Below, in pieces: positions 5,216 to 58,289 of a stretch of 64,000 nucleotides of DNA. The notes below the pieces were generated by a model. It was not told the DNA's origin, ran no database searches, and was given only the letters and a program-made list of their open reading frames with translations. Both the position numbers and the translations under genes were made by a program. Origin of the DNA: Pseudooceanicola sp. HF7. GTDB taxonomy: Bacteria; Pseudomonadota; Alphaproteobacteria; Rhodobacterales; Rhodobacteraceae. The DNA lies in assembly GCF_011806405.1 (NCBI RefSeq), contig NZ_JAATOW010000013.1:44284-108283 (forward strand), read 5' to 3'. The first letter of the stretch is position 1. The number at the start of each line of letters is the position of its first letter.

Positions 5216-5518
5216 ATTTGCGCGGGTAGGGACTCGGGCAAGGGATTGATATCCCGAGGGAAGTTTCCCCCGAAAGACCCGAGGGGAAGGCCCTGCGCCA
5301 GATGCGGCGGGGGGCTGGGACAGGCGATTCCAGGACATGCGAAGGGGTGACCGATGGCGCGTCAGGGTGGCGGCGGGGCCATGAATTTGCGCGGCGGATG
5401 CACGGGGCTTCCAGCTGCGTTCGGGGGGAACCGGGCGGGTCAGGCCTGCGCATCGACGGACCCGCGGCGGGCAGCGCGCGCTGCATTAAGATCCGCGGGT
5501 TAACGGGGCGCACGCAAC

Positions 5519-5573
5519 GTCGGTATCGCGTCGGTATTACGTCGGTATCGCGTCGGTGCCATGTCGGTATCTG
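5519..5573 (+). repeat. 11-bp tandem array, copy 1
   Basis: Five head-to-tail 11-base units with consensus GTCGGTATCGC: TATCGC, TATTAC, TATCGC, TGCCAT and TATCTG endings after a constant GTCGG core. It is preceded by GGTTAACGGGG and followed by TTAA words. A homologous array in inverted orientation lies upstream of dnaN at 56727-56804, with the same order of features including the degenerate GTCGGTGC penultimate unit. Confidence 0.9.
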
Positions 5574-5682
5574 CGAAAATTAACCGGATAACGGCAAAGG
5601 GTTAAGCCCGGCCCGAACTCTGTTAAGGTTTGCGCCAAAGGTTAACGGAACGCCCCGGCGGGGTGGCAGAAGGGGCTGCGGG

Positions 5683-6665: not shown

Positions 6666-7616
6666 ATGGCAACACAGAACGAAACGAATGTCTTCGATAC
6701 TGAGCTGTTCTTTATGTCCTACCGAAATTTGTTTCCAGAGGACGTACCAACCGGCAGAGCAGTTTTCGAAAAGCTTGCGGAGGAACATGCCGCAAAGCCG
6801 TTTCCCACGCTAGAGTACCAAGCCCGGAAAGTTTATATTGCTGAGCTTGTTCTGAGTGGAGACTGGGTTGATATTCTCTTCCACCTGACTGACCCTGAGA
6901 TCCGAGACCGCGACTATTCAAACCTCGATGACGGAACACTCAGAACAGCTGAGAGGATGGATGGAGAAGAACCTGCCTTCTCCTCCCATGTATCAATCTG
7001 CATAGCTACACAGTTTGATACCACCAGAACATACCCTTGCATCATCCAAGAAACCGAGAGCCTTTCTCGAACCCTCATTTCTATTTCCTTAAACACTTAC
7101 ATAAAGCCACTATTTTACGAGGAGAACAGGGCCCGCCCTGACAAAGGCGACACCAAAACTTTTCGCGTCACCGCCAAACTTCAAGCTCCCATCGATGAAA
7201 CCCTTTCAGGCATGATTGACAACGGGGGAAGAATCGAAGCAGTAAAATTTGTAGAGCAAAGCCTCGCCCAGGTTGTGAACGGAGATGAGACATATCCGAC
7301 TCAAGAGCAGAGGAGCGTTCTAATAAAAACGGATGAAAAGCCCACACTTGATCGCGCCAAAGACTTCATAACCTCTTTCTATAGCGGCTTCGACCGAAGC
7401 GGAATAAAGTCACTTAAAGTAATAGTTTACGACCCCGAAAATGATACGAACAAAACCATACCGGTCAACCTGAATGATGATAACATCCTGCAGAACGCAT
7501 TCATAAAAAAAATTAAGCTCACCGGGTTTGATACGCCATTGAAGGACTGCGACGCGACGATACGTGAAGACATTCTGACGAAAATGAAGGGGGTAAGGCC
7601 CAATGCCGCTCCTTGA
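6666..7616 (+). CDS. Uncharacterised protein of an AT-rich two-gene cassette
   Basis: A 316-residue soluble protein without signal peptide or membrane segment; I do not recognise a family. The start at 6666 is chosen over an upstream TTG. The N-terminal half mixes helices with hydrophobic strands (VYIAELVLSGDWVDILFHL; SSHVSICIATQFD), and the C-terminal half ends in a lysine-rich strand region. Composition is plainly AT-richer than the rest of the window (by eye under 50% GC) with many AAA and ATA codons, which points to horizontal transfer. It overlaps the following membrane-protein gene by 14 bases, a sign of translational coupling and a joint function. Confidence 0.8.
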   Translation: MATQNETNVFDTELFFMSYRNLFPEDVPTGRAVFEKLAEEHAAKPFPTLEYQARKVYIAELVLSGDWVDILFHLTDPEIRDRDYSNLDDGTLRTAERMDGEEPAFSSHVSICIATQFDTTRTYPCIIQETESLSRTLISISLNTYIKPLFYEENRARPDKGDTKTFRVTAKLQAPIDETLSGMIDNGGRIEAVKFVEQSLAQVVNGDETYPTQEQRSVLIKTDEKPTLDRAKDFITSFYSGFDRSGIKSLKVIVYDPENDTNKTIPVNLNDDNILQNAFIKKIKLTGFDTPLKDCDATIREDILTKMKGVRPNAAP

Positions 7617-8190
7617 AAAGTCGATTTTCTTGAGGACGCTGAACTTTCTCAGAATACAGCACCCACATAGAGCACAATACTGCTACATATACCCAGCGAC
7701 AATAACCGCCTTCGTGCTGGCCGCTTCAATCTATTCAAATTGGGGACACCCAAGCCCCAGTTTGACAGAAAGGATGCAACCCATCCTCTCTAGCGTCTTA
7801 ATACTCTTCCCATTCTTTCTGGCCAGCCTCGCCGCGGTATCAACCTTTCAAGGCCCCAAAGGATTCGACTCCGAATTTAAGATGAGGACGCCAGTTGTGC
7901 TTAGCGTTACATATCGCGGTGGCTTAAGGCAAATACCTGTGAGCTATAGATACTTCCTTTGCCTTCTACTCGGCTATTGCGCAAGCATTTCTCTATTCAT
8001 CTTTGTTGCGCTCTCACTAGAGTCGGCAATACCGCTTTCCAGAATCATTAAGAGCAGTGACATTCTGGATCTATTGATGGTCGCATTCTCTGCAATTAAT
8101 TGCTTCCTGTTCTTCCAAATCCTTATCCTAACGATGGTCGCAATATACTATCTATCAGATCTGATTCACCGATTGGACAAGAGAGAATAG
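7603..8190 (+). CDS. Four-helix membrane protein of the AT-rich cassette
   Basis: A 195-residue protein with four clear hydrophobic segments at about residues 27-46, 60-82, 117-141 and 152-184. A charged central loop (about 85-115) and short tails complete it; no family is recognised. The ATG lies inside the end of the preceding gene and has a good GAAGGGGG ribosome binding site there. The soluble-plus-membrane pair, foreign composition and repeat-flanked position resemble membrane-acting phage-defence modules (the Kiwa pair is one architectural analogue), but no sequence signature supports a named system. It converges on pncB with four bases between stop codons. Confidence 0.8.
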   Translation: MPLLEKSIFLRTLNFLRIQHPHRAQYCYIYPATITAFVLAASIYSNWGHPSPSLTERMQPILSSVLILFPFFLASLAAVSTFQGPKGFDSEFKMRTPVVLSVTYRGGLRQIPVSYRYFLCLLLGYCASISLFIFVALSLESAIPLSRIIKSSDILDLLMVAFSAINCFLFFQILILTMVAIYYLSDLIHRLDKRE

Positions 8191-8194
8191 CCTT

Positions 8195-9487
8195 CTAAAC
8201 CACAACCTCCATCCGCTCCTGCTCCCCAACCCCGAACACCCTCTTGTACCGGGCGATCTCGTCCGCCGGCCCCATGGCCTTCTCGGGGTTATCCGAGAGC
8301 TTGACGGTGGGCCGGCCATTGGCGCTTTGGGCCTTGCAGACAAGGGAAAACGGGGCGAGGGCGTCGCCCGGCACCAAGCCTCGGAAATCGTTGGTCAGCA
8401 GCGTGCCCCAGCCGAAGCTGACCTTCACGCGGCCGGTGAAACGGGCGTAGAGCTCCTCGATCTTGGCGACGTCCAGGCCGTCGGAGAAGATCACCAGCTT
8501 CTCGCGCGGGTCCTCGCCCCGGGATTTCCACCAGTTGATGGCGGTTTCGGCGCCGGTGGCGGGATCGCCGCTGTCGATGCGGATGCCGGTCCAGCCCGCC
8601 AGCCAATCGGGCGCATTGGCCAGGAAGCCCTCTGTCCCGTAGGTGTCGGGCAGGATGATGCGCAGGTTGCCCGAGTGCTCCTCGTGCCAGTCGGCAAGGA
8701 CGTCGTAGGGGGCGCGGGCGAGCGCGGCATCATCGGGGGCGAGCGCGGAATAGACCATGGGCAGCTCATGGGCGTTGGTGCCCACGGCCTCCAGGTCGTC
8801 GCGCATGGCGATGAGGCAGTTGGAGGTGCCGGTGAACTTGGGGCCCAGCCCTTCGATCATGGCCTGCACGCACCAGTCCTGCCAGAGGAAGGAATGGCGG
8901 CGGCGGGTGCCGAAATCGGCGATCTTGAGCTCTGGCAGCTCGCGCAGGCGTTCGATCTTTTCCCAGAGCTTGGTCATGGCGCGGGCATAGAGGATCTGCA
9001 GTTCGAACTTGCCCAGGGTGTCGAGAACGGCGCGGCCGCGCAGCTCCATCAGGATGGACAGCGCGGGGATTTCCCAGAGCATGACCTCTGGCCAGGAGCC
9101 TTCGAAGGTCAGCTCATACTGGTCGCCGCGCCGTTCCAGGTGGTAGGGCGGCAGGCGCAGGTTCTCAAACCACTCCATGAAGTCGGGGCGGAACATCTGG
9201 CGCTTGCCGTAGAAGGTGTTGCCGCGCATCCAGGTGCTCTCTCCCCGGCGGAGGGAGAGGGAGCGGACGTGGTCGAGTTGCTCGCGCAGCTCGCCTTCGT
9301 CGATCATCTTCGCCAGCGGGATCTGCGTGGAGCGGTTGATGAGGGAAAAGGTGACCTGCGTGTCGGCGCGGTTGCGGAAGACCGACTGGCACATCAGCAG
9401 CTTGTAGAAATCCGTGTCGATAAGGGAGCGGACGATCGGGTCGATCTTCCACTTGTGGTTATGGACGCGGGTGGCGATGTCGACCAT
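8195..9487 (-). CDS. pncB: Nicotinate phosphoribosyltransferase
   Basis: A 430-residue cytoplasmic enzyme that joins nicotinate to PRPP, with ATP use, to give nicotinate mononucleotide for NAD salvage. The N-terminal IDTDFYKLLMCQ motif, the FRNRADTQVTFSLINRS strand and the FGTRRRHSFLWQ segment in the middle are characteristic of PncB, as is the length. The nicotinamidase gene pncA, which makes its substrate, lies 2 kb away on the same strand, separated by one unrelated gene on the other strand. Confidence 0.95.
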   Translation of the reverse strand: MVDIATRVHNHKWKIDPIVRSLIDTDFYKLLMCQSVFRNRADTQVTFSLINRSTQIPLAKMIDEGELREQLDHVRSLSLRRGESTWMRGNTFYGKRQMFRPDFMEWFENLRLPPYHLERRGDQYELTFEGSWPEVMLWEIPALSILMELRGRAVLDTLGKFELQILYARAMTKLWEKIERLRELPELKIADFGTRRRHSFLWQDWCVQAMIEGLGPKFTGTSNCLIAMRDDLEAVGTNAHELPMVYSALAPDDAALARAPYDVLADWHEEHSGNLRIILPDTYGTEGFLANAPDWLAGWTGIRIDSGDPATGAETAINWWKSRGEDPREKLVIFSDGLDVAKIEELYARFTGRVKVSFGWGTLLTNDFRGLVPGDALAPFSLVCKAQSANGRPTVKLSDNPEKAMGPADEIARYKRVFGVGEQERMEVVV

Positions 9488-9707
9488 GGGCGGCTCCTTG
9501 CTTCTTGCGGATAAAGCAGGCGGGGCGGGCAGAATGCAAGTCCTGGTGGCGCGCGGGCGCGGTTATGCGCAATCTAAAGCGGAGTTATTGGAATTGGAGA
9601 ATCGCCTTGATTGTCCTATCCTGCGCGCATTGATCCCCAGTTTCATTCCACGCGGTGTTTTCTGCACCCGATCCATTCAGACGGAAATCATTCAGGGAGG
9701 AGCACAG

Positions 9708-11273
9708 ATGGCGCATGCACCCAACCACGACAAGGCGGGCCCGCCTAGCTGGTGGCTGCCCCTGCTTATCTCTCTTCTGGGGCTTCTCAGCATCCTGTTC
9801 GGCGCCCTGGTCCAGACCACACCGCAGCTTCAGCGCGTGCTGATCTATTCCGGCGCGGCGCTCTGGCTGACGGCCGCCGGGGGCGCGGCCACGGGCAAGT
9901 ACGGCCCCTTTTCGGTGACCGGCGCGGTTGGCGTGCTGGCCCTGCTGTTCTTTCTCAACCCTGATGAGGTCAAGACGCCGCAGAGAGAGCTCAAGGTCTC
10001 TCACGAGGCGCTGTTCGAGAAGCTGAGCAACCTGGAGGCCCGGTCGAAAACGCGCATGCTCTACATGAAGATGGCCCGCCCCGATAACGAGGCCTACTTC
10101 CTGCTCGATGATGACTCCCTTGCCTCTGACACGATCCGGCTGCGCACCGTGCTAGCCGATGGCAAGGAGCGGTCCCTGCGCCTGTGTGTCTCTGCCCTGC
10201 AGGCCGCCATGGCAGAGCAGGAGGCGCGCAACACCATGCTTTCCGTCAACTACATCGACCTCTCCGACAGCGCCGCGCTGATGTACGCCAACCAGCCGCT
10301 GACCCATCCGCAGAGCTGCCCCACCCTGCAGACCGCCGATCAGGCAGAGGGCCCCTGGTGGTCCCGCCTGGCCGTGCTGGAACAACTGGTCGCCACGGCC
10401 CATGCCCAGGCCGGCTTTGCCACGCAGCGCGTGCCCTGCTCGCCCCAGGATGCGGGCTCTGCGCAGCTGTTCGAGGATCTTGGCTCTGACAACGGCGGCT
10501 TGCGGTTCGAGGCCGCGGGACGGTTCGCGGCGGGCTGCGATGCGGCCTCTCTGAGGGACCTCATGGATCATGGCGCCACCGTCGGGGCCGAGGGCAACTA
10601 CGGCGGCGCGGTCCTGGATATCATGGAGACCATGGTGCAGATGGGCGTGCCCGCCCAGGAGCTGACGCAATCCCTGGACGACGCCGCCTACGACTACTTC
10701 GGCGCTCTTTACCAGGCGGGCGACGACACGCTGGCCCGGGGCACGGCCGCCGCGCTGACCGAGCTCAAGGATCCCAGGGCCGCAAGCGCCCTGCTGGAGG
10801 CCGCGCAGGCGCAGGGCGTCCCGGAGAGCGCGCTGAGGGAAACCGCCCGCGCCGTCGCGGCAGGTTTCTTTGCTGCGGATCCCGAAACGCAGGTCGCCCT
10901 GACCGACCAGATCCAGGCCCCCGAAACGCCTGAAAACCTGCGCGCCGCGCTCGGCCACCTGACCGCCAAGGCGGAGGACACCACCGGCGACGGCGTCAGT
11001 ACGGGTGGGGGGCTGACCGACCCGGGCGCGGGGGCCGACACGGCCTGGATTCCCGCCTGGTCGAGCGACCCGGCCCTTCAGGCGGCGCAGGCCGGCGACA
11101 TCGTCACGCTTCAGTCCCAGACCCTGCTGGAAGAACAGCCGACCTTCTTTTCTGCCGAGGAAGGCTGGGTTCAGGCGCCGGTGGTGGGGGTGGTGCCGCA
11201 GGGCGGCGCGATCACCATCCTGGAAAGCGTGGAATCCACTCCGGGCTTCAACTGGCTGCGGATCGAGCGATAG
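9708..11273 (+). CDS. Membrane-anchored helical-repeat protein, unknown function
   Basis: A 521-residue protein. Three hydrophobic segments fill the N-terminus (about residues 13-36, 41-59 and 64-82). A long alpha-helical domain follows, with HEAT-like Ala/Leu-rich repeats between about 220 and 440, and a beta-rich, SH3-like end (about 465-521). The start at 9708 has a GGGAGGAGC ribosome binding site and is preferred over in-frame upstream codons. It is flanked by pncB (divergent) and pncA (convergent), but nothing links it to NAD metabolism. Function unknown. Confidence 0.7.
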   Translation: MAHAPNHDKAGPPSWWLPLLISLLGLLSILFGALVQTTPQLQRVLIYSGAALWLTAAGGAATGKYGPFSVTGAVGVLALLFFLNPDEVKTPQRELKVSHEALFEKLSNLEARSKTRMLYMKMARPDNEAYFLLDDDSLASDTIRLRTVLADGKERSLRLCVSALQAAMAEQEARNTMLSVNYIDLSDSAALMYANQPLTHPQSCPTLQTADQAEGPWWSRLAVLEQLVATAHAQAGFATQRVPCSPQDAGSAQLFEDLGSDNGGLRFEAAGRFAAGCDAASLRDLMDHGATVGAEGNYGGAVLDIMETMVQMGVPAQELTQSLDDAAYDYFGALYQAGDDTLARGTAAALTELKDPRAASALLEAAQAQGVPESALRETARAVAAGFFAADPETQVALTDQIQAPETPENLRAALGHLTAKAEDTTGDGVSTGGGLTDPGAGADTAWIPAWSSDPALQAAQAGDIVTLQSQTLLEEQPTFFSAEEGWVQAPVVGVVPQGGAITILESVESTPGFNWLRIER

Positions 11274-47380: not shown

Positions 47381-47420
47381 CATGGGGGGGTAAGAGCTGA
47401 TGAGGGGCAAAGAGAAGAAC

Positions 47421-48863
47421 ATGGACACGGACTACTGGGGCGAACTGAAGAACAACCTGCGAAAATCGGTGGGGGAGCATAACTTCACCGCCTGGATCGC
47501 TCCTCTTGAACTCGACAAGGTCAAGGATGGCGTGGCCACGCTCAAGGCGCCCACGAATTATGCCGGCATCTATGTCGAACGGAATTTCGGGGATCAGATC
47601 CTCAACGAATTCGCCGCGCTCAAGGGCAATGTCCGTCGCCTGGTGTTCTGCGTGGAAAAACCCGGTGCGCAGGATCGTGCCGCCCCGGTCGACGGCCAGG
47701 AGGGCATGGCGCCTTCCACGGCAGCTGCCAGCCTGTCCCGGGCCGCCGCGCCCCGCGCCCAGGGACGCAGCAGCGGCTCCTTCTCGCAGGATGAGGACAT
47801 GCGCGCCAAGCTGGAGCGCATGCTGCAACCCGCGCCCCTGGACCCCAATTGCACCTTCGACAGCTTCGTCGTCGGCAAGCCCAACGAACTGGCCCATGCG
47901 GCCGCCCGCCGTGTCGCCCGCGGTGGCAAGCCCGAGTTCAATCCGCTGTTCCTCTACGGGGGCGTGGGCTTGGGTAAGACGCACCTCATGCACGCGATCG
48001 CCTGGGAGCTTCAGACCAGCAATCCGCACCTGAACATCGTCTACCTCTCGGCAGAGCAGTTCATGTACCGCTTCGTCCAGGCGCTGCGTGACAAGAAGAT
48101 GATGGATTTCAAATCCCTCTTCCGCAACGTCGACGTGCTGATGGTCGATGACGTCCAGTTCATCGCCGGCAAGGAATCAACGCAGGAAGAATTCTTCCAC
48201 ACCTTCAACGCGCTGATCGACCACAACAAGCAGATCATCCTTTCCGGTGACTGCGCCCCGAACGAGATCAAGAACCTGCCGGTCCGCATCTCTTCGCGCC
48301 TGGCCTCCGGCCTGGTGGTCGACCTGCACCCGACCGACTACGAGCTGCGCCTGGGCATCCTGCAATCCAAGGTCGATGCCTTCCGCGTCAACCACCCAGA
48401 GATTTCCGTCGCCGATGGCGTGCTGGAATTCCTGGCCCACCGCATCTCCACCAACGTCCGCGTGCTGGAAGGCGCGCTGACCCGGCTGTTCGCCTTTGCC
48501 TCCCTGGTCGGTCGCAAGATCACCATGGAACTGACCCAGGATTGCCTGGCCGACGTGCTGCGCGCCTCGGATCGCAAGATCTCGATCGAGGAAATCCAGC
48601 GCTGCGTGGCAGAGCATTACAACATTCGCCTCAGCGACATGATCGGCCCCAAGAGGGTGCGCAGCTTCGCCCGCCCGCGCCAGATCGCCATGTTCCTGTG
48701 CAAGCGCATGACCTCGCGCTCCCTGCCGGAGATTGGCAAGCGTTTCGGCGGCCGCGACCACACCACCGTGATGCATGCGGTCAAGCGGATCGACGACCTG
48801 ATGGCCCAGGACGCGCAGATCGCCGACGACCTGGAGCTTCTGCGCCGCACGCTGGAAGCCTGA
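47421..48863 (+). CDS. dnaA: Chromosomal replication initiator DnaA
   Basis: A 480-residue initiator. Domain I (about 1-80) is followed by a Pro/Ser/Ala linker (about 85-130) and the AAA+ domain with Walker A GGVGLGKT (residues 180-187) and Walker B VLMVDDVQF. The DnaA signature helix NVRVLEGALTRLF and the C-terminal DNA-binding motif FGGRDHTTVMHAVKRI follow. The in-frame ATG at 47400 is an alternative; 47421 is preferred because AAAGAGAAG precedes it. Confidence 0.97.
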   Translation: MDTDYWGELKNNLRKSVGEHNFTAWIAPLELDKVKDGVATLKAPTNYAGIYVERNFGDQILNEFAALKGNVRRLVFCVEKPGAQDRAAPVDGQEGMAPSTAAASLSRAAAPRAQGRSSGSFSQDEDMRAKLERMLQPAPLDPNCTFDSFVVGKPNELAHAAARRVARGGKPEFNPLFLYGGVGLGKTHLMHAIAWELQTSNPHLNIVYLSAEQFMYRFVQALRDKKMMDFKSLFRNVDVLMVDDVQFIAGKESTQEEFFHTFNALIDHNKQIILSGDCAPNEIKNLPVRISSRLASGLVVDLHPTDYELRLGILQSKVDAFRVNHPEISVADGVLEFLAHRISTNVRVLEGALTRLFAFASLVGRKITMELTQDCLADVLRASDRKISIEEIQRCVAEHYNIRLSDMIGPKRVRSFARPRQIAMFLCKRMTSRSLPEIGKRFGGRDHTTVMHAVKRIDDLMAQDAQIADDLELLRRTLEA

Positions 48864-48922: not shown

Positions 48923-48932
48923 CGTTTCCGCG

Positions 48933-50927
48933 TCAGGGATCCCCGGACCCCGGCACGCCAAAGGGCGCGTCGATGCGCAGGCGCCCGCTGCCGGCCCGTG
49001 ACGGGGCCGGGCGCGGGCCGGGATAGGTCGAATCACTACCCGCTGCGGCCTCGGCCACCCAGGTGCGGTCCACCGTTTCGCCCCGTGCCAGCCCATCGGC
49101 CATGAAGCGCGCCACCAGCGGCGCGGCCATGCTGGTGCCGTTCAGCCGCAGGTAGGAGCCGCTGCGACTTCCCGCCGCGATCACCCCGGGCAGGGCCGGG
49201 CTGTCATCGCTGCGCGCGGCGGCGTCGGGCCCCTTGCGGTCGGCGCTGCGCGCGCCCCGCGTCGGCGTGATCGGCCCGGCGGCGGAGTAATCGGGCAGCA
49301 GTCCGTTGCGCTCCGTCAGCCCGGCCACCACCACCGGGCGCGCACCTGTGGCAAAACCGCTCAGCGTGCCCGCCCGCCGCACCGGGCAGTCGGTCTCCGC
49401 CGGGTCCACCGCCAGCGGTGCGCCCAGCGCATCGAAGCGGCGATAGCAGCTGTTGTCGAAATAGGCCTGCCGCCCGCCGCCCCGGTAGCCGGGCGGGCTT
49501 TCCTCGCGCAGCACCCAGACCTGCACCGGGGCCGGGCTGCTGCCGCCCAGCGCCGCATGGATCTGCCATTGCCCCGCCGGGGCCAGCGCCACCGCGGAAT
49601 CAAGGGCCGCGGTCGGATGCAGACTCAGCCCAATCTGCCCCCGCACCGTGGGCGAGGGATGCCAGCCATAGGCCAGCCGCGCGACCTCGCGCCCCCTTGC
49701 ATCCACCAGAACCGCGCCGGAGCCGGGACGCGCCTGCACCGGCGGGCTTTCCGGGCCACCGGGCGGGCGCACCCGCAACGTCAGCGCCTCTGCCTCCCGC
49801 TCGGTCTGGTAGGGCAGCCAGAACTGCACGTGGCTGGCGGTGCGATCATCGGGCCGGGCCATCAGGCGCAGCTCTTCCTGCGGCGCGCTCAGCGTGGCAT
49901 GGACCTGCGCCAGGTTGCCATTGCCCGCCGGCAGCACCACGCGCAGCGCGGGATGCCGATCCAGGCGATCCTCGATCAGCCGGGCGATCAGGCTGGTACC
50001 GTCATGGGGCCCGCCGAAATTGCCGTAGCTGAAGTTCAGCACCATGGGCACCGGCTCCCCGTCGGGCAGACGGTAGCGCCGCGCGTGGTGCAACAGCCGG
50101 TCCACCGCCAGGCCCAGCACCGGCTCAAGCGACCGCCCGGTCACGTCCCGCGTGACAGAGGCCGGCAGCATCGCGCAAAGGATCGGGCGTTCCCGCGCAG
50201 AGCCGTCCGGCGGATAGCCCGCCGCCAGCGAACAGACATGGGTGCCATGCGACCGCCGCTGGCTGACGGGCTCCAGCCCCTCTCCGGTCATGCGGATCAC
50301 CCCCGCCGCGCGGTAGAATCCCTCTTCGTCCAGCAATCCGTGGCGGCTGTGGCGGCGCAGCAGCTTGTCGATCCGCCGCCGCTTCAGCACATGGCCATAG
50401 CTGCCCCGCTTGCGCGCATCCGGGGCGCTTTCCATGACATAGGCCAGTTCCACCCGGCTTTCGGCGGGCCCGCTGCGGAACAGCTCATGGGCAATCGCGA
50501 TCCCGTCGTCGATCACGCCCATCAGCACCGTTTCCTGCGGCAGGACGATCTGATCGTCCTCTTCCAGCGGCGCGGCCTGCTGCACGTGTTCGCCGGCTAT
50601 CGCCGCGCCAAGCTGGATCGCGCTGACCCCCAGCCCGTTGCCGGGGCGGTTCATCTCTTCCAATACCGGGCCACGGGCAAAGACGGTGACCACCCGGCCC
50701 GGCTGCACCACAAGGTCCGGCGCATGGACCTCTGGCAGGATCATCCCCGGCGCCATCTCGGGAAAGGCCGCCTCAACACGCGCCTGCAACTCCGCCAGGC
50801 TCACCTCCAGCGCCAGCAGGGCCGACCACCAGGGATCCTCTGGCAGATGCGCGTCGGGGCGGCTCAGGCGGAAGGCGGCCACCGGGTCCGCGCCCTGGGG
50901 TGGCAGGTCGATCCATCGCAATGTCAT
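48933..50927 (-). CDS. Subtilisin-like S8 serine peptidase of the dnaA-dnaN insert
   Basis: A 664-residue peptidase with a full catalytic set: Asp140 in LMGVIDDGIAIAHELF, His227 in SHGTHVCSLAAG, Ser599 in NGTSMAAPLVA, and an oxyanion Asn in LPAGNGN (about 336). About 130 residues precede the catalytic domain. A 150-residue beta-rich insertion lies between the Asn and Ser motifs. No signal peptide is visible, so it is either cytoplasmic or exported by another route. It lies three bases after the PAP2-like gene, in one operon with it. The substrate is unknown. Confidence 0.88.
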   Translation of the reverse strand: MTLRWIDLPPQGADPVAAFRLSRPDAHLPEDPWWSALLALEVSLAELQARVEAAFPEMAPGMILPEVHAPDLVVQPGRVVTVFARGPVLEEMNRPGNGLGVSAIQLGAAIAGEHVQQAAPLEEDDQIVLPQETVLMGVIDDGIAIAHELFRSGPAESRVELAYVMESAPDARKRGSYGHVLKRRRIDKLLRRHSRHGLLDEEGFYRAAGVIRMTGEGLEPVSQRRSHGTHVCSLAAGYPPDGSARERPILCAMLPASVTRDVTGRSLEPVLGLAVDRLLHHARRYRLPDGEPVPMVLNFSYGNFGGPHDGTSLIARLIEDRLDRHPALRVVLPAGNGNLAQVHATLSAPQEELRLMARPDDRTASHVQFWLPYQTEREAEALTLRVRPPGGPESPPVQARPGSGAVLVDARGREVARLAYGWHPSPTVRGQIGLSLHPTAALDSAVALAPAGQWQIHAALGGSSPAPVQVWVLREESPPGYRGGGRQAYFDNSCYRRFDALGAPLAVDPAETDCPVRRAGTLSGFATGARPVVVAGLTERNGLLPDYSAAGPITPTRGARSADRKGPDAAARSDDSPALPGVIAAGSRSGSYLRLNGTSMAAPLVARFMADGLARGETVDRTWVAEAAAGSDSTYPGPRPAPSRAGSGRLRIDAPFGVPGSGDP

Positions 50928-50930
50928 GGC

Positions 50931-52238
50931 TCAGCCCCCCGCGCCGTGGCCGGGCAGATCCGCCCATTCCGCCACCGCCTTGTCCCAGAGCCAGGCCAGC
51001 ACGGCAGAGCCCTCTGCCCCCCGTGGCGCCTTGCCCCGCCCGACCCGCGCCCAGGGGTGATGCCGCTCCCCGGAATGGCGCGGCTGACTGTCCTCGGCGG
51101 CGTCGTAAAGCATGTGCCAGTCGAAATCCTGCGCGCCGTCGAAATTGCCCCCCAGGAAGCGCCCATGGCTGCGGGTGCGCACCCCGGGATCGCAGCGCTC
51201 GGCGATGAAATCCGCCAGCGTCAGCCCCATCAGCGCCCCGGCGGCGCTGTCTGCGGGGAAATGCCCCCCCGCCACGGTCCGGTTCACCGCCACCCGGGCC
51301 GCCTGCCGCATCAGCATCTCGGCCCAGACGGGATCCTGGTACTGCGGCGTCTTCGCGGCGCGTTGCAGCTTCACCAGAAGCCGCGCCAGCAGGAAGGCCT
51401 CGGTCGCATGGCCGCTGGGCAGGGTGCCATGAGTCGGCGTCAGGATCATCGGCTGCACCTGGGGCGAAAACTCGATCGGGCGCTTGCCGGCCAGGGTATA
51501 TTTCACCTTCTGCACCGCGACAGAGGCAAACTGCCCCGCAGTTGCCAGAAGCTCCATCGTGTAGGGGGTGCGCGCCGGGTCCATGAACCCGATGGAGGCA
51601 AAGAAGGCAAAGGGCGGCGACAATTGCGCCAGGATCTCCGGCCCCCGGTCCGGGCGCAGATCCGCATAGGCCGCCAAGTAGCGCATCTGCTCCTTGAAGG
51701 TGTCGATATCGGGCAGGCTGACCGAAACCAGCGGCTCCAGCGACAGGCTTGGCGCCTCCGGCCCAGGGCCGCGATGCTCTGCGTGATCAGACTCCTCGCC
51801 GGGGTTGTCGCCCGCGTTGTCGCCAGCGTCCTCTTCGTAGCGATGCCCCCCTGAGCCGCCCTCTGGCAGCACCAGGTCCGTCTGCCACAGGTGCACGGCG
51901 GGCCGGTCCTGGTCCAGGGTGGCGGAAAAGGTCACGCGCCCGGCAAGCTCTGCGAAATAAAGCCGCGCGCGCACCTCTGCGGCCAGGCGCGGGATGCCGG
52001 CAGGATCGGCGGGCGGAGCCGGTCGGATGGCCGGATCATAGTTCAGCGGCGCCCCCGCGATCCCGTCGCGATTGGTGATCAGCGCCTCTGCCGTGCCCGG
52101 CCCCCCGGCGCCCCCGCCGAAAGCGGAAAAGGCTGAAAACGCCGAAAAGGCGGAGAACGCGGAGAAAGCCGAGAAGGCGGAAAAGGCAGAGAAGGCCGAA
52201 AAGGCGGATTCAGGCGAACCGCCGCTTTGATAGGTCAT
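50931..52238 (-). CDS. PAP2/vanadium haloperoxidase-fold protein with Ser-Ala-Phe repeats
   Basis: A 435-residue protein. Residues 11-40 are ten tandem Ser-Ala-Phe units, followed by a Gly-rich joint. The acid phosphatase/vanadium haloperoxidase site is complete: KX6RP at Lys246-Pro254, PSGH at 274-277 and RX5H at Arg320-His326. It could be a phosphatase or a vanadium-dependent haloperoxidase; the sequence does not decide. No signal peptide or membrane helices are seen, unlike lipid phosphatases, which favours the haloperoxidase-like branch. The start at 52238 has GGAG 11 bases before it. It is cotranscribed with the S8 peptidase. Confidence 0.85.
   Translation of the reverse strand: MTYQSGGSPESAFSAFSAFSAFSAFSAFSAFSAFSAFSAFGGGAGGPGTAEALITNRDGIAGAPLNYDPAIRPAPPADPAGIPRLAAEVRARLYFAELAGRVTFSATLDQDRPAVHLWQTDLVLPEGGSGGHRYEEDAGDNAGDNPGEESDHAEHRGPGPEAPSLSLEPLVSVSLPDIDTFKEQMRYLAAYADLRPDRGPEILAQLSPPFAFFASIGFMDPARTPYTMELLATAGQFASVAVQKVKYTLAGKRPIEFSPQVQPMILTPTHGTLPSGHATEAFLLARLLVKLQRAAKTPQYQDPVWAEMLMRQAARVAVNRTVAGGHFPADSAAGALMGLTLADFIAERCDPGVRTRSHGRFLGGNFDGAQDFDWHMLYDAAEDSQPRHSGERHHPWARVGRGKAPRGAEGSAVLAWLWDKAVAEWADLPGHGAGG
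52119..52208 (-). repeat. Ten 9-bp units encoding Ser-Ala-Phe
   Basis: Ten head-to-tail nine-base units, all coding Ser-Ala-Phe. The third positions differ from unit to unit: Ser uses TCC, TCG, TCT and TCA; Ala uses GCC, GCG and GCT; Phe uses TTT and TTC. Every difference is synonymous, which argues that the peptide and not the DNA is being preserved. Confidence 0.95.
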
Positions 52239-52340
52239 GGAAGGCTCCTGTGTTGAAAGCTGTCTGGTGAGAATCGCCGGCCGCTCGCACCGGCCCCGAT
52301 GCACCGGCCCCAAGCCTACAAGCCCGGGACCGGCCTGCCG

Positions 52341-54404
52341 TCAGTTGGGAATACCCGCCGCCCTCAGGGCCTCCGCGATCTCTTGTCCAATCGGGTAATC
52401 CGCCGCCGGAGAGGTGCGCAGCCAGGTATCGACCCGGAAGCCGGGCTGAAGCGTCAGCAGCTCCTGCGCGGCATCGCGGGCCTCCGGCTGGCGCTCCATC
52501 CGTGTCAGGGCAATGATCTTGCCCCGCAGGGTAGAGGTATGGCTGCGGTTCATACGCAGGCTCTGCTGGCTCAATTCCAGGGCGCGGGGGTAATCCTGTG
52601 CCGCGATGCAGGCCCCGGCGGCCAGCGCCAGGAAGAAGAAGCGATGCGGATCCAGCGGGGCCAGGTGCAGCGCGCGTTCCGCATCCGCCCGCGCCGCCGC
52701 GCCCCGGCCCTGGTAGCCATAGAGCATGCCGCGCAGGATCCGGGCGTTGGCATCGTTGGGATTGATCTCGAGCGCGGCGTCGTAGCACAGCACCGCCTCG
52801 TCCAGGCGCCGCCAGAGGTTGGTCAGCACGATCCCCTCGCTGGTCAGCGCCAGGGTGTTTTCCGGGTCCAGCTCCAGCGCCCGGCGGGCACAGTCCAGCG
52901 CCGCGCGGGCGGCCCCTTCGGGATCGTCCGACCAGCCCTGCTGAAGCCGCAGCACATGCCAGCGCGCCAGCCAGGCCAGCGGCGTGGGCTGGTCCGGGGC
53001 GCGGTCGATAAGAATGCGCAACACGCGCTCGGCGGTCATGAAATCGCCCAGCGTCAGCCGGTGCATCAGCCCGATGGCCGCGAACAGCAGGCTCTGGCTG
53101 CGCAGGTCCGGCAGGGCATGGCGGCGCAGCTCCTGCAGGCTGCTCAGCACGATCGCCTTGCGGATCTGCCCGGCCACCTGCATCACCACCTCCGGCGCGC
53201 TGATCATCGCCTCTGCCCGGCATTCCAGCCGATCCGCCCAGAGAACCGCGTCATTGCGCGGATCCGCCAGCTCCAGCATCAGCACCACCTGCTCCCCGGC
53301 GACAGAGATCCGACCCGACAGCACGAAATCCGCCGCCAGCGCCTCGCGGATGCCTGCCAGGCTGCTGTCACGGTTGGCGAAACGCGCGGTGGACAGGCGG
53401 GAGATCACGTTCAGCTCGCGGGAGCGCGACAGGTGGGCGATCAGGTCATCGGCCAGCATGTCCCCCAGCGCGGCCTCTGCGCCGGCGGCCACCTGCGGCC
53501 GGGCCGGGCGCGGCGGCAAAATGGCGATCGTCGGCACCAAGGCAGCCTCCTGCCCCAGTTCCGGACGCACCCGCGCCTCCGATCCCGCCGGCAACAGCGC
53601 AAAGACACGCACCGCGGGCTCTCCGGGCAGGGCCATTTCTCCGCGATCCGCGAAGATCCCGTCCAGGGGCTCCACCGCGGCCTCGCGCACCTCCACGGTG
53701 ACCAGGATGCCCGGCGCGGTCATGGCGGCGGCCAGGCGGGCGGCGCGCGGGTCGGCCTCGGGCGGACCCATGTCCATGGCGATGCGCAGGCCCGGCACCC
53801 GGTCGAAGACGGAGCGCACCTCCCTGAACGCCTGATCCGCAGCCTCTGCCAGGGCCAGGACCCCCTCTCCGGGGCGCGCCTCAAGGATGGTCAGGCCGCG
53901 GGTCTCCAGCCAGCCGGCCAGGCGCCGCGCCAGCTCCGGCTCCGCCCCCGGCGGGGGCAGGATGCGCAGAAGCGGCTGGGCGCGGGCCGCGAAGGCTCCG
54001 GCAGGCAGGCGCCCCTCCGGAATGTCATTTGGCAGCTCATCGGGCCTGTCATCCCCCTGCGGCGGAACCGGCCCGGCACGCAGCAGGTAGCCGCGCTTGG
54101 GAAAGGTCCGCAGCTGGCTGCGATCCCGATCCCCCACGGCGCGGCGGATTTCCGTAATGCATTGCACCAGGCTGTCATCGGTGACGTTCACATCCGGCCA
54201 GACCTCTGCGATCAGGTCGTCCTTGCTGACCATGCGGCCCAGGTTGCGCGCCAGCACCGCCAGGACCTGGATGCTCTGCGGGCGCAGGTGAACCGGCGCG
54301 CCCTGCGCATCCACGAGCTCTCCGGTGGCAGGCAGATACCACAGCGCACCGATCCGCAGCGCGCCCCTGCTCCCCATTCCCGAGTGCACGTGCTGATGTC
54401 CCAT
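52341..54404 (-). CDS. Winged-helix regulator with degenerate cyclase, TolB-like and TPR domains
   Basis: A 687-residue protein. An OmpR-type winged helix (about residues 12-108: LRPQSIQVLAVLARN, SKDDLIAEVWPDVNVTDDSL, FPKRGYLL) is followed by a region resembling the end of a class III nucleotide cyclase (LRIAMDMG, AARLAAAMTAPGILVTVEV, RVFALLP). A TolB/FlgO-like domain (about 290-400) comes next, then TPR repeats to the end. The usual cyclase metal Asp pair is not apparent, so this part is probably a sensor. The start at 54404 follows GGAGGA; alternatives are 54431 and 54377. It is divergent from the 531-residue orphan and upstream of the PAP2-S8 operon. Confidence 0.82.
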   Translation of the reverse strand: MGHQHVHSGMGSRGALRIGALWYLPATGELVDAQGAPVHLRPQSIQVLAVLARNLGRMVSKDDLIAEVWPDVNVTDDSLVQCITEIRRAVGDRDRSQLRTFPKRGYLLRAGPVPPQGDDRPDELPNDIPEGRLPAGAFAARAQPLLRILPPPGAEPELARRLAGWLETRGLTILEARPGEGVLALAEAADQAFREVRSVFDRVPGLRIAMDMGPPEADPRAARLAAAMTAPGILVTVEVREAAVEPLDGIFADRGEMALPGEPAVRVFALLPAGSEARVRPELGQEAALVPTIAILPPRPARPQVAAGAEAALGDMLADDLIAHLSRSRELNVISRLSTARFANRDSSLAGIREALAADFVLSGRISVAGEQVVLMLELADPRNDAVLWADRLECRAEAMISAPEVVMQVAGQIRKAIVLSSLQELRRHALPDLRSQSLLFAAIGLMHRLTLGDFMTAERVLRILIDRAPDQPTPLAWLARWHVLRLQQGWSDDPEGAARAALDCARRALELDPENTLALTSEGIVLTNLWRRLDEAVLCYDAALEINPNDANARILRGMLYGYQGRGAAARADAERALHLAPLDPHRFFFLALAAGACIAAQDYPRALELSQQSLRMNRSHTSTLRGKIIALTRMERQPEARDAAQELLTLQPGFRVDTWLRTSPAADYPIGQEIAEALRAAGIPN

Positions 54405-54500
54405 CAGGACATGTCCTCCCCCCGGCGTCATGCCGCCCGAATACCACCTTAGCGTGAGTCGGAGTTTCCAAGTCAACCATTTAGGGTTTTCGCGCCTTCT

Positions 54501-54548
54501 CCTGCACGCCCCCGCCCCTGCACGGCCCCGCCCCTGCACGCCCCCGTC
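54501..54548. promoter_or_regulatory. Three 16-bp direct repeats between divergent genes (putative operator)
   Basis: CCTGCACGCCCCCGCC, CCTGCACGGCCCCGCC and CCTGCACGCCCCCGTC follow each other without gap at 54501, 54517 and 54533, each with at most one change from the consensus. They lie between the regulator start (54404) and the orphan start (54733), where an operator of the winged-helix protein would be expected. The rest of this 330-base gap is C-rich and shows no gene. Confidence 0.6.
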
Positions 54549-54732
54549 AGCGCCCCCTCAACGGCATCCGCCCCGCCCCGCGCCGCGCCCTCCCCCGGCT
54601 TTCGGAAGGCCTTCGCTTTTCTTCGGGACGGTTTCGCCGGGCCTTCAGGACTTCGGCCATCAGCGGACGCACCCTGAAGCGGCTGGCTCATCCAGCCTCA
54701 CCCACCACCGCCCCTCATCAAGGAAAGCTCCC

Positions 54733-56328
54733 ATGTCCACCTATCGCATCTCCCTCGGCCGCCCCGGAAATCCCCCCGGCGTCTACAACTTCGCCCAGAC
54801 CGTCGTCGCACCCAGCCCGGACATCGCCATCGGCCGCGCCTACGAGGCCTGGATTGCTGACACCGCCCCGCCGACCCCCCCGGTTCCGCCCCTGTCCCAG
54901 TGCACCGTGAGCGTGCGCCGGATCGGCCAGACCGAAGTGCTGGCCAATGTCGCCTCCACCTCCGCGCAGGAAGAATTCGCCAATGCGCTGGAAGACAAGG
55001 TCGGCCAGTTCCTGGGCTCCCGCCTGGATGGCACCTTCCAGACCGTCGCCTATCCCTCGGGCTTCAACTACGGCATCACCTATGGCTCCAACGCCTATTG
55101 GAACGCCGCCACCCTGCAGGATTTCGACACGCTGCTTGGCACCTCCTCCAGCGGCCAGCTCGAACTGGTCGGCGGGCGCTTCTCCACGTTCTATTCCCAG
55201 ATCCTGGGGGCCGTCGCCTTCGACTTCTCCAGCGCCGACCAGCAGGTGATCAACGAACAGGACACCGCGGCCTCGGCCCAGATCGCCTCCATCCTGAGGG
55301 AATTCGAAAATGCCGGCGGCACCTATAGCAGCCCGCTGCCCTTCGGCGGCAAGCTGCAGGACGTCTTCAACCAGCTGACAGAGCAATACGGCGCCGTGGA
55401 CAAGCTGCCCGATACGTTGAACGCCCTGCGCAATGCCATCGCCTCCTACAAGTCCATGGCCGGGGCCAGCTATGCCCTGCACAACCGCTACTACCAGGCC
55501 ACGGCCCGGCTGAGCGCGGCCCGCGCCAACGTGCTGGCCCCCTCGGAAACCAACGGCGGGCAAGAGGTCAGCGCCAACACCTATTACGTCGGCTACACGC
55601 CCAACAAGCTGCCCACGGCGAACCAGCTGCTGGCCGACCTCGGCAATGACGGCAGCTCCGTCAAGATCCAGATGACGCTGTCGGACTTCACCTCCACCAC
55701 GACCAAGCTCAGCGTCAGCGGCAGTGCCGGGCTGACCATCCCGATCATGGATGTCTTCCGCCTCGATCTCGCCGCCTCGGCCTCCTATGACCTGTCGACC
55801 TTCACCTCCCAGTCCTCCACCGTGACGGTGGAAATGACCTTCAAGGGCGTGACCACGGCCGCCGCGATCCCCTCGCCGCTCTCCACCGACAATGCCACCG
55901 GCTGGTACGCGGAAGAGATCCTGTCCGAAGTCGCCTCGAAAAGCGGCAAGGACGCAACCGGCTACCAGCTGATCGGATCGGAGTTCAAAATCGATCAGCT
56001 CTTCGGCCCGGGCAAGGCCTTCTCCCGGCTCAAGACCTTCGTCGTCTCCCAGCAGCCCGAGGTGGTCATGACCTTCGAGGCGGCAGAGGAAAGCCGGATC
56101 ACCTCCGATCTCAAGGTCGGGGCCAAGCTCTCCCTCGATCTCTTCGGGATCTTCTCCCTGGGATCAGCCAGCGCCGATTACGAGGTCCACAAGGTCGACA
56201 CCTCCTCCCGGCAGGGCGCCGTGATCGTCACCTTCTCCGCGCCCAAGCCCAGCGGCTCCACGCCCCTGGAACAGCAGAAGGCCTATGTCATGGGCGGCGT
56301 CCCCAGCTACCCGCCGGTGAACGTCTGA
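54733..56328 (+). CDS. 531-residue orphan protein of the dnaA-dnaN insert
   Basis: A soluble protein without signal peptide or clear membrane helix; no family is recognised. The N-terminus (about 1-60) is Pro-rich. A mixed region (60-200) is followed by a helical segment with LNALRNAIASYKSMAGASYALHNRYY (about 235-260). The C-terminal half (about 290-510) is rich in Ser/Thr and alternating hydrophobic residues (TTTKLSVSGSAGLTIPI; SSTVTVEMTFKGVTTAAAIP), which suggests long amphipathic beta strands. AAGGAAAG precedes the start. It has host-like GC. It is divergent from the regulator, and probably the module's main product. Confidence 0.8.
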   Translation: MSTYRISLGRPGNPPGVYNFAQTVVAPSPDIAIGRAYEAWIADTAPPTPPVPPLSQCTVSVRRIGQTEVLANVASTSAQEEFANALEDKVGQFLGSRLDGTFQTVAYPSGFNYGITYGSNAYWNAATLQDFDTLLGTSSSGQLELVGGRFSTFYSQILGAVAFDFSSADQQVINEQDTAASAQIASILREFENAGGTYSSPLPFGGKLQDVFNQLTEQYGAVDKLPDTLNALRNAIASYKSMAGASYALHNRYYQATARLSAARANVLAPSETNGGQEVSANTYYVGYTPNKLPTANQLLADLGNDGSSVKIQMTLSDFTSTTTKLSVSGSAGLTIPIMDVFRLDLAASASYDLSTFTSQSSTVTVEMTFKGVTTAAAIPSPLSTDNATGWYAEEILSEVASKSGKDATGYQLIGSEFKIDQLFGPGKAFSRLKTFVVSQQPEVVMTFEAAEESRITSDLKVGAKLSLDLFGIFSLGSASADYEVHKVDTSSRQGAVIVTFSAPKPSGSTPLEQQKAYVMGGVPSYPPVNV

Positions 56329-56486
56329 CCCAGGCATTCCGGATCCGGCACTCCCCCAAGGACTGACCCCGGATCCGGACAGCGGTGGCCCCGAAGCGCT
56401 TGCGTGGGCCACCGCCCCAGCGGGCTCCGCTGCCCCATCCGGCGAAGCCCCACGCCCGGCCCTTCCCCCGAAGGTGCCGGGCGCTT

Positions 56487-56526
56487 CCTTCTGCCAGGCC
56501 AGTCTCCCTTCTGCCAGACCAGTCTC
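56487..56526. repeat. 20-bp tandem duplication
   Basis: CCTTCTGCCAGGCCAGTCTC is followed at once by CCTTCTGCCAGACCAGTCTC, one mismatch. It lies in non-coding DNA after the orphan gene, and no function is evident. Confidence 0.8.
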
Positions 56527-56726
56527 CGCCGCCCCATCAAGGGCCGCGCGAAGCCTCGGCTGCCTGCAGCCGCCGCCCCCACTCCGCCCAATGCACGCCC
56601 ATCCGGCCTTTTGCCTCACGTCCAACTTCTTCTTGCCCGAAAACTCCCGCCGGAGGCCCCCACCCGCCACGCGCACCCAGGCCGGCCAATTCCAGCACCC
56701 CCCACCGTGCGCCGCCTTAACCCCGC

Positions 56727-56804
56727 CCGATACCGACCTGCGCACCGACGCAATACCGACGCAATACCGACGTGATACCGACGCGATACCGACGCGATAC
56801 AGAC
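56727..56804 (-). repeat. 11-bp tandem array, copy 2 (inverted)
   Basis: On the minus strand the array reads as five 11-base GTCGGTAT-type units (56804-56750; the first has GTCTG), then a degenerate 12-base GTCGGTGC unit and a last GTCGGTATC unit, then GGGGTTAAGG. Copy 1 at 5519-5573 has the same plan, with GGTTAACGGGG before it, the GTCGGTGC unit second to last and TTAA after it. It lies about 370 bases upstream of dnaN. Confidence 0.9.
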
Positions 56805-57170
56805 GTGGCCCAAACCGGCGAAGACCCCCGTTAACCAGCCACTTGCCCCCGATTCGGGGCAGAAGGCCCACCGAGGGCCCCGCACGGCCCGGCAGGATCC
56901 CCTTAACCCGACGGGACGGCGGGCGGGGCGAGGCGCCCGCCAGGGCGCCAGCGCCGCTCCCGTCCACCCCCCGATCCCCGCCCATGTTGCCCCTGGCAGG
57001 GGCAGAGGGACCGCCCGATTGTGGCCCCTGCGCCGCGTTCCGCCCAACCATCCACCCGCCGGCCTCCAAATTCGCAAAAACCCATTGTATCGCGTGTGAA
57101 AACAGGTAGCTTTCCGGTCCCGGTGCATCGCATTCCGGGGCCGCGACAGGATCGTACAGGGACGAGTGAC

Positions 57171-58289
57171 ATGAAATTCAGCATCGAACGCGCCGCGCTT
57201 CTCAAGGCCGTCTCACAGGCCCAATCCGTGGTCGAGCGCCGCAACACGATCCCGATCCTGGCCAATGTCCTGATCGAAGCCGAAGGCGCCGACGTGCAGT
57301 TCCGCGCCACCGACCTCGACATCGAGGTGGTCGACAAGGCCCCCGCCATGGTCGAACGCGCCGGGGCCACCACGGTCTCTGCCGTGGTTCTCCATGAAAT
57401 CGTTCGCAAATTGCCCGATGGCGCCATGGTCACCCTGTCCGAGGATTCCGGCGCAGGCCGCCTGACGGTCCAGGCCGGCCGGTCGAACTTCAACCTGGCC
57501 ACCCTGCCGAAAGAAGACTTCCCGGTCATGGCCAGCTCCGAGTATGCCTCCAATTTCTCGGCCCCCGCGCCGGTTCTGCGGCGGCTCTTCGACAAGTCGA
57601 AGTTCGCCATTTCGACCGAGGAAACAAGGTATTACCTGAACGGCGTCTACATGCATGTCGCCGAATCCGAAGAGGGGCGCATGCTGCGCTGCGTGGCCAC
57701 CGACGGCCACCGCCTGGCCCGGATCGACGCAAAGCTGCCCGAGGGCGCAGAGGAAATGCCCGGCGTCATCGTGCCCCGCAAGACCGTGGGCGAGCTGCGC
57801 AAGCTGCTGGACGATGACGACCTGGTCGTCGATGTCTCCGTCTCCGAATCCAAGGTGCGCTTCGCCACGCCGCAGATCACCCTGACCTCCAAGGTCATCG
57901 ACGGCACCTTCCCGGATTATTCCCGTGTGATTCCAACGAATAACACCCGCCGCCTGGAAGTGGACGCCGCCGAATTCGCCAAGGCCGTCGACCGGGTCGC
58001 CACCGTCAGCTCCGAACGCTCCCGCGCCGTGAAGCTGTCGCTGGACGAAGACCGGCTGGTGCTCTCCGTCAACGCCCCCGACAGCGGCGCGGCAGAGGAA
58101 GAGCTGGCCGTGGCCTATGCCGACGAGCACCTCGATATCGGCTTCAACGCCAAGTACCTGCTTGAGATCGCCTCCCAGGTGGACCGGGAAAACGCGGTCT
58201 TCCTGTTCAACTCCTCTGGCGATCCAACCCTGATGCGCGAAGGCAATGACCTGAGCGCCGTCTACGTGGTCATGCCGATGCGCGTTTAA
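57171..58289 (+). CDS. dnaN: DNA polymerase III sliding clamp
   Basis: A 372-residue beta clamp: MKFSIERAALLKAVSQAQSV at the N-terminus, RRNTIPILANVLIEA, LRCVATDGHRLARID in the middle, PDYSRVIPTNN, and the C-terminal LMREGNDLSAVYVVMPMRV. It is full length. A ribosome binding site (AGGGACGAG) precedes ATG. It is 53 bases upstream of recF. Normally close to dnaA, it is here separated from it by the four-gene insert. Confidence 0.97.
   Translation: MKFSIERAALLKAVSQAQSVVERRNTIPILANVLIEAEGADVQFRATDLDIEVVDKAPAMVERAGATTVSAVVLHEIVRKLPDGAMVTLSEDSGAGRLTVQAGRSNFNLATLPKEDFPVMASSEYASNFSAPAPVLRRLFDKSKFAISTEETRYYLNGVYMHVAESEEGRMLRCVATDGHRLARIDAKLPEGAEEMPGVIVPRKTVGELRKLLDDDDLVVDVSVSESKVRFATPQITLTSKVIDGTFPDYSRVIPTNNTRRLEVDAAEFAKAVDRVATVSSERSRAVKLSLDEDRLVLSVNAPDSGAAEEELAVAYADEHLDIGFNAKYLLEIASQVDRENAVFLFNSSGDPTLMREGNDLSAVYVVMPMRV

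Follow-up and report, generated by a model that had tools for sequence, protein, structure and literature searches.

Why should one family of enzymes keep a short peptide repeated exactly at its N terminus while the peptide itself changes from one lineage to the next? The question is raised by four genes lying between dnaA and dnaN in Pseudooceanicola sp. HF7 (contig NZ_JAATOW010000013.1), within the 64,000-nucleotide stretch of DNA that was analysed here and is called the window. Three of them, all on the minus strand, encode a leaderless subtilisin-type (S8) serine protease (48933..50927; PF00082, Peptidase_S8, 1.4e-8), a PAP2-superfamily enzyme with an N-terminal short-peptide array (50931..52238; PF01569, 1.6e-9) and a regulator combining a winged helix (Trans_reg_C, 8.1e-13) with TPR matches (about 52341..54431). 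The fourth, on the plus strand, encodes an orphan of 531 residues (54733..56328), regarded here as a candidate cargo protein. The initial annotation, made from the DNA alone, had listed these same four genes, and Pfam recognised the subtilase, the PAP2 protein and the regulator, with the orphan left unmatched.

Three Genes Form a Conserved Cluster

A match to the PAP2 enzyme was found in 94 of 295 genomes of the family, and 39 places in 33 genomes were retrieved; with the window and two Tateyamaria contigs, the first relatives found with the same genes, these comprise 42 loci with 43 enzymes. The loci were selected by the enzyme, and both the regulator and the protease accompany it in all 42. 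A sample of the phylum, where 20 of 398 genomes had an enzyme match at 1e-20 or better, contributed 16 further loci, six of them within the family and ten outside it. All 16 contain the regulator and the enzyme, so that a relative of the regulator is present in 58 of 58 loci, and a protease was identified by the same profile in 12, as a neighbouring PF00082 protein in two and as a peptidase of type A4 (PF01828) in two. The A4 peptidase replaces the subtilase beside an array enzyme in loci L113 (8502-9551; unit TGN) and L114 (10283-11350; unit AGN).

The triad is also found on plasmid records of Phaeobacter, Roseibium, Rhizobium and Paraburkholderia, and four of the six Phaeobacter plasmids retrieved are typed as conjugative. 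On plasmid pW43B of Parasedimentitalea marina (L132, 9055-11710), the enzyme and protease are fragmented and no array was seen, a decayed copy. The orientation of the genes is variable, the triad sharing a single strand in the window and the regulator or the protease being inverted in many other loci, and because their arrangement varies we refer to a cluster and not to an operon. The earlier proposal of a single four-gene system stands for the regulator, the PAP2 protein and the protease, which occur together well outside this strain, and not for the orphan, which is facultative and lies near the triad in four of the 42 loci. These data support the regulator, enzyme and protease as one system, apparently a fixed core whose neighbouring genes are exchangeable.

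The PAP2 Enzyme Carries a Perfect N-terminal Array

The enzyme belongs to the PAP2 superfamily, with the signature K-x6-RP, PSGH and R-x5-H-x3-D complete. Lys246, Arg253, Pro254, Pro274, His277, Arg320, His326 and Asp330 are invariant among 32 aligned enzymes, and Ser275 and Gly276 are kept in at least 90%. Profile matches were obtained with an acid phosphatase (7f17, 4e-19), LpxE (6ebu, 8e-11) and a bromoperoxidase (1qi9, 1.5e-8, over a short core); the nearest solved relatives are thus acid phosphatases, with vanadium bromoperoxidases matching more weakly. From its sequence the enzyme could be either a phosphatase or a haloperoxidase. It has the catalytic signature in common with acid phosphatases, LpxE and vanadium bromoperoxidases, and differs from the known superfamily in its N-terminal array and in having the regulator and protease as neighbours.

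In the window, the array consists of 10 perfect SAF units encoded by nine different DNA units (52119..52208, minus strand, overlapping the Tandem Repeats Finder rows at 52116-52208) and starts at residue 11, counted from the ATG that we read as the start codon. Three consecutive SAF units occur nowhere else in the genome, of which the assembly is 97% complete. With a single rule for all genes, requiring five or more perfect copies of a unit of 2-4 residues within the first 130 residues, arrays were detected in 39 of the 43 PAP2 genes; of the 580 other genes predicted in the regions, none qualified. A wider count of 59 enzymes (43 + 16), extending to residue 150 of the open frame, gave 56 with at least five perfect consecutive copies, and as many as 20. 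The remaining three comprise two interrupted arrays (AAF and GAF) and a short GAQ array in another frame at L062. This last locus (7552-10393), where the regulator is split in two and the array is out of frame with the enzyme, is probably a copy in decay or the result of a sequencing error.

The arrays start 0-21 residues (median 4) past the nearest start codon. A Shine-Dalgarno-like match was found at the nearest start before the array in 37 of 56 cases, at the first ATG behind the array in five of 56 and at 9% of random places, and the arrays are likely to be translated. Among the 120 best database relatives, 20 include a repeated stretch of at least nine residues in their deposited form, three of these outside the N terminus. 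Annotation can hide arrays, as with two Tateyamaria proteins whose deposited forms begin downstream of theirs.

Tripeptides make up 50 of the 56 arrays, three others being built of two-residue and three of four-residue units, and 44 different units are represented. When the enzymes are placed on a tree from which the array was left out, the unit must have changed at least 47 times among 45 states; this count takes in four-copy tracts, and the tree was made quickly, with weak support at 22 of its 56 inner branches. Even two Tateyamaria species differ in their unit (SSY versus SAY). Recurring units exist, GGA foremost; GGH is common to two Rhizobium strains, and the six Phaeobacter plasmids all carry NSF, in six copies (four P. 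inhibens), seven (P. gallaeciensis) or five (P. piscinae). The repeat architecture is conserved while the unit changes between most genera, and we know of no described bacterial protein with a near-constant, perfect N-terminal array that behaves in this way.

Relative to the core of the enzyme, Asn (3.7-fold), Gly (3.0-fold), Tyr (2.0-fold), Gln (1.7-fold) and Ser (1.6-fold) are over-represented in the 45 units, whose 134 residues include a single Leu and neither Pro nor Cys. Such a composition, rich in Asn, Gly, Tyr, Gln and Ser, is prion-like. A collagen-like repeat was considered and rejected, as there is no proline in the 45 units and many are without glycine; the two arrays listed under Pfam Collagen score 26.7 and 22.3, below the cut-off of 27.2.

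The Repeat Is Kept in Protein and Broken Up in DNA

Over the 1690 codons of the 56 arrays, six residues deviate from the unit as compared with 776 codons that are synonymously different from the commonest codon; the former count is slightly lowered by the choice of arrays as perfect runs, with units matching at half or fewer positions ending an array. Among 1036 pairs of neighbouring copies, taken from 39 arrays, 725 differ in their codons. Random draws according to the codon usage of the other locus genes gave an expectation of 582 (standard deviation 16) and shuffling the order of the copies one of 611 (standard deviation 13), and none of the 1000 trials of either kind reached 725. As a control, pairs of identical residues at a distance of three in the regulators and proteases gave 2377 of 3950 against 2383 expected. 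Since the observed value exceeds both null expectations and the control does not, neighbouring copies avoid each other's codons. Together with the few residue and many synonymous deviations, this avoidance reveals a repeat that is kept in the protein and broken up in the DNA. This is most simply explained if the repeat matters at the level of the protein and if DNA repeats, being unstable, are lost or counter-selected.

These codon data bear most directly on the possibility that the array serves as inert spacing or results from slippage, perhaps as a contingency locus, which is already disfavoured and which we consider very improbable. Birth by amplification of a unit does seem likely; several arrays keep one serine codon class throughout, and copy number varies among the Phaeobacter plasmids. 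Slippage would not, however, leave so few amino acid differences among so many synonymous ones, nor neighbouring codons that differ beyond chance. A phase-variable locus was rejected on the same codon differences and on unit length: all units are of 6, 9 or 12 bp, multiples of three bases that permit no on/off switching.

Self-association as a Tentative Explanation

Our tentative preference, well short of a probable conclusion, is that the array makes the enzyme self-associate and that the protease activates a cargo, predicted to be a pore former, within a conserved cluster whose cargo is facultative. We favour self-association, rather than binding to a partner's pocket or recognition by the protease, because the composition of the units is prion-like. 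Prion-like and FG-repeat low-complexity domains are built from short sticker-and-spacer units of Gly, Ser, Asn, Gln, Ala and aromatic residues; the cluster units differ from these in being perfect, 2-4 residues long, mostly private to a genus, codon-shuffled and confined to one enzyme family.

In the proposed sequence of events, the TPR regulator would sense stress and induce the cluster, and identical units would then bind each other, such that the copies must match and the unit itself is free to change between lineages. The assembled enzyme, whether phosphatase or haloperoxidase, could concentrate or license the protease, which would in turn cleave a local cargo, here the orphan; this last step is the weakest. 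The whole would be a cytosolic device, with the array serving as a private self-association tag. A more specific form of the proposal, which we regard as doubtful in its entirety, is that of a signalling device in which assembly of the enzyme through a homotypic peptide barcode, with a lineage-specific unit of 2-4 residues, arms a linked cytosolic protease, releasing an interchangeable cargo that here would represent a new family of gasdermin-like pore formers. As part of this form, selection would keep the copies identical in protein and apart in DNA, rendering the array exact yet genetically stable.

The Regulator and a Possible Ligand for Its TPRs

The reading frame of the regulator is open as far as a GTG at 54539, with the ATG at 54431 being our own reading of the start, and its winged helix is of the OmpR type. 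Three direct repeats with 16-bp spacing are located upstream of the regulator, between the divergent genes (54494..54550), and represent a possible operator. In a comparison of four phylum-sample regulators with Pfam, three contained TPRs together with a nucleotide cyclase domain, and the fourth gave TPR-type matches alone. Regulators of the HilA/CadC type have the winged helix and TPRs in common with the cluster regulator, whereas the three from other families carry the nucleotide cyclase domain instead. Assignment to the HilA family was rejected, the NCBIfam HilA model scoring 56.1 bits, far under its cut-off of 589.

The presence of TPR matches in both regulator types, winged-helix and nucleotide-cyclase, would fit a different role for the array, namely as a multivalent ligand that tethers the enzyme to the regulator's TPRs, or to some other single-pocket partner, with unit and pocket changing together. 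A single pocket would require identical units, and in this way the uniformity within each array and the 44 units across them would both be accommodated. The predicted covariation was nevertheless not found when unit charge was compared with the charge of the TPR region (Spearman -0.23, p 0.11), and the two- and four-residue units (three of each among the 56) alter the spacing that a pocket would meet. We judge this alternative unlikely, if not strongly so.

The Protease and Possible Removal of the Array

The protease is a member of family S8, and its Asp140, His227 and Ser599 and the oxyanion residue Asn336 are identical in all 55 aligned relatives, the catalytic residues thus being intact in sequence. 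Together with the PF00082 match and the lack of a leader-like segment, this bears out the leaderless subtilisin-like peptidase of the initial annotation. None of the four insert proteins is hydrophobic enough anywhere for a signal peptide or membrane helix, the highest 19-residue Kyte-Doolittle mean being 1.37. With a leader-like segment in none of the four, there is no pointer to secretion and no support for the suggestion of a secreted weapon, although the proteins might be exported in an unusual way.

A protease gene in 58 of 58 loci also fits a role for the array as a pro-region that the co-encoded protease removes or counts, thereby activating or inactivating the enzyme, and the array stays when the class of the protease is exchanged from S8 to A4. 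A cleavage site does not, however, need 5-20 perfect copies, and, given the 47 or more changes of unit that the tree requires, the specificity of the protease would have had to change equally often. Nor does protease charge track the unit. A pro-region seems to us rather improbable.

The Orphan as a Candidate Cargo

Two models of the orphan (predicted local distance difference test, pLDDT, 80.9 and 86.9) show a helical part and a β-rich core, with the first ∼69 residues optional. No family match was found in Pfam, NCBIfam, PADLOC or PHROGs. A comparison of the modelled fold points weakly to gasdermin-like pore formers, with no sequence relation to gasdermins in Pfam, NCBIfam or PADLOC, nor by profile among PDB sequences. 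Two candidate amphipathic hairpins were located on the plus strand. The first, residues 325-352 (55705..55788), includes the windows ranked third and sixth by β-moment, which lie below the 95% level of shuffled sequences; the second, residues 460-489 (56110..56199), has the top window at 0.63, compared with shuffled maxima of 0.62 (95%) and 0.68 (99%).

The step in which the protease cleaves its cargo is proposed by parallel with the fungal HET-Q1/HET-Q2 pair, where an S8 protease cleaves a gasdermin according to PMC12881547 and PMC10989679. As in that pair and in bacterial gasdermin-protease operons, an S8 or other protease is encoded beside the pore former, here a candidate one, with the subtilase lying in the same insert, and the outcome would be regulated cell death. 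The orphan differs from gasdermins in several respects: it has no sequence match, its 531 residues contrast with the 278 of HET-Q1, and it is absent from most triads. The N-terminal cysteine that is palmitoylated in bacterial gasdermins, as given in PMC10989679, is also lacking, the sole cysteine of the orphan being residue 57, in the optional first domain. Conversely, no PAP2 enzyme or peptide array is mentioned for gasdermin-protease systems in the available portions of PMC12881547 and PMC10989679. The peptidase-rich conflict systems (eLife 52696, PMC7159879) offer a further likeness, as S8 peptidases are combined there with other domains in operons; PAP2, peroxidase and tripeptide are absent from the main text of that paper (PMC7159879). 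A literature search returned no recognisable description of the cluster or the arrays, most subscription papers lying outside its reach.

The orphan could instead be a passenger that serves a separate role and is functionally unconnected with the triad, a reading to which we give a little less than an even chance. It is missing from 38 of the 42 triads, and in one family genome it is located on a different contig from the PAP2 match. Its 105 matches, itself included, extend to Glycomyces, Streptomyces, Ideonella, Collimonas and others, and two tandem copies in genome G161 have no triad nearby. A passenger would not be expected so close to the regulator as is seen in the window and G293, two of the three orphan-bearing genomes of the family, where it lies 0.2-1 kb away, pointing away from it, with one small gene between in G293; chance proximity of this kind is improbable in genomes of 4 Mb. 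Both Tateyamaria loci are arranged likewise, but were found through the enzyme and are not independent. In these two loci a longer paralogue of the orphan, an open frame of ∼646 residues (L003, 3677-5617; L004, 3673-5610), is found beside one of 479 residues. A tandem pair of orphan-family genes with no triad nearby was observed at L048 (9209-12160).

The Cluster Was Inserted between dnaA and dnaN

The four genes occupy a gap of 8307 bp between the end of dnaA (47400..48863, plus strand; PF00308, 4.2e-64) and the start of dnaN (57171..58289, plus strand; three DNA polymerase III beta domains). When the window proteins were compared by tblastn with the same region in six family genomes, the gap, measured from tblastn edges, was 189 bp in a congener (G192) and 162, 130, 1118, 150 and 139 bp in the other five, and in all six rpsT was found upstream and recF and gyrB downstream in identical order. 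As six relatives have short gaps between the same flanks, the 8.3-kb block is an insertion in the lineage of Pseudooceanicola sp. HF7, in agreement with the ∼8-kb separation first noted. The G+C content is 69-75% in kilobases 49-54 and 60-64% in kilobases 46-49, and provides weak support for insertion because kilobase 45 also reaches 70%. About five 11-bp repeats with a consensus near ACCGACGCGAT lie upstream of dnaN (56744-56805), and a similar stretch is present on the opposite strand at 5514-5575.

Other Genes around the Triad

A family of ∼215 residues, found directly before the regulator in five loci by clustering (L004, 7374-8018; L032, 6400-7056; L033, 6904-7719; L035, 6269-6910; L037, 13209-13937), had no Pfam match in the one member tested; a similar reading frame is present in L003, and none was seen in the window. 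Genes for animal-type haem peroxidases adjoin four triads (L040, 5595-7169; L041, 5025-6848; L055, 5115-6884; L064, 5222-6997), identified with Pfam in three and by clustering alone in L041. An unnamed family beside seven triads (L046, 4277-6409; L053, 12995-14491; L054, 5955-7640; L060, 3682-5157; L061, 12624-14297; L065, 12847-14157; L066, 12924-14426) had no Pfam match in three members tested. Large repeat-rich proteins are found near the triad in four loci.

Implications

Perfection at the level of the protein, set against anti-repetition at the level of the codon, is a clean trace, in natural sequences, of selection for a peptide repeated exactly, and makes the arrays a testable case for the evolution of low-complexity self-recognition. 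The cluster spans alpha- and betaproteobacteria, including cultured Phaeobacter and Roseibium, and may constitute a hidden device for regulated death or stress.

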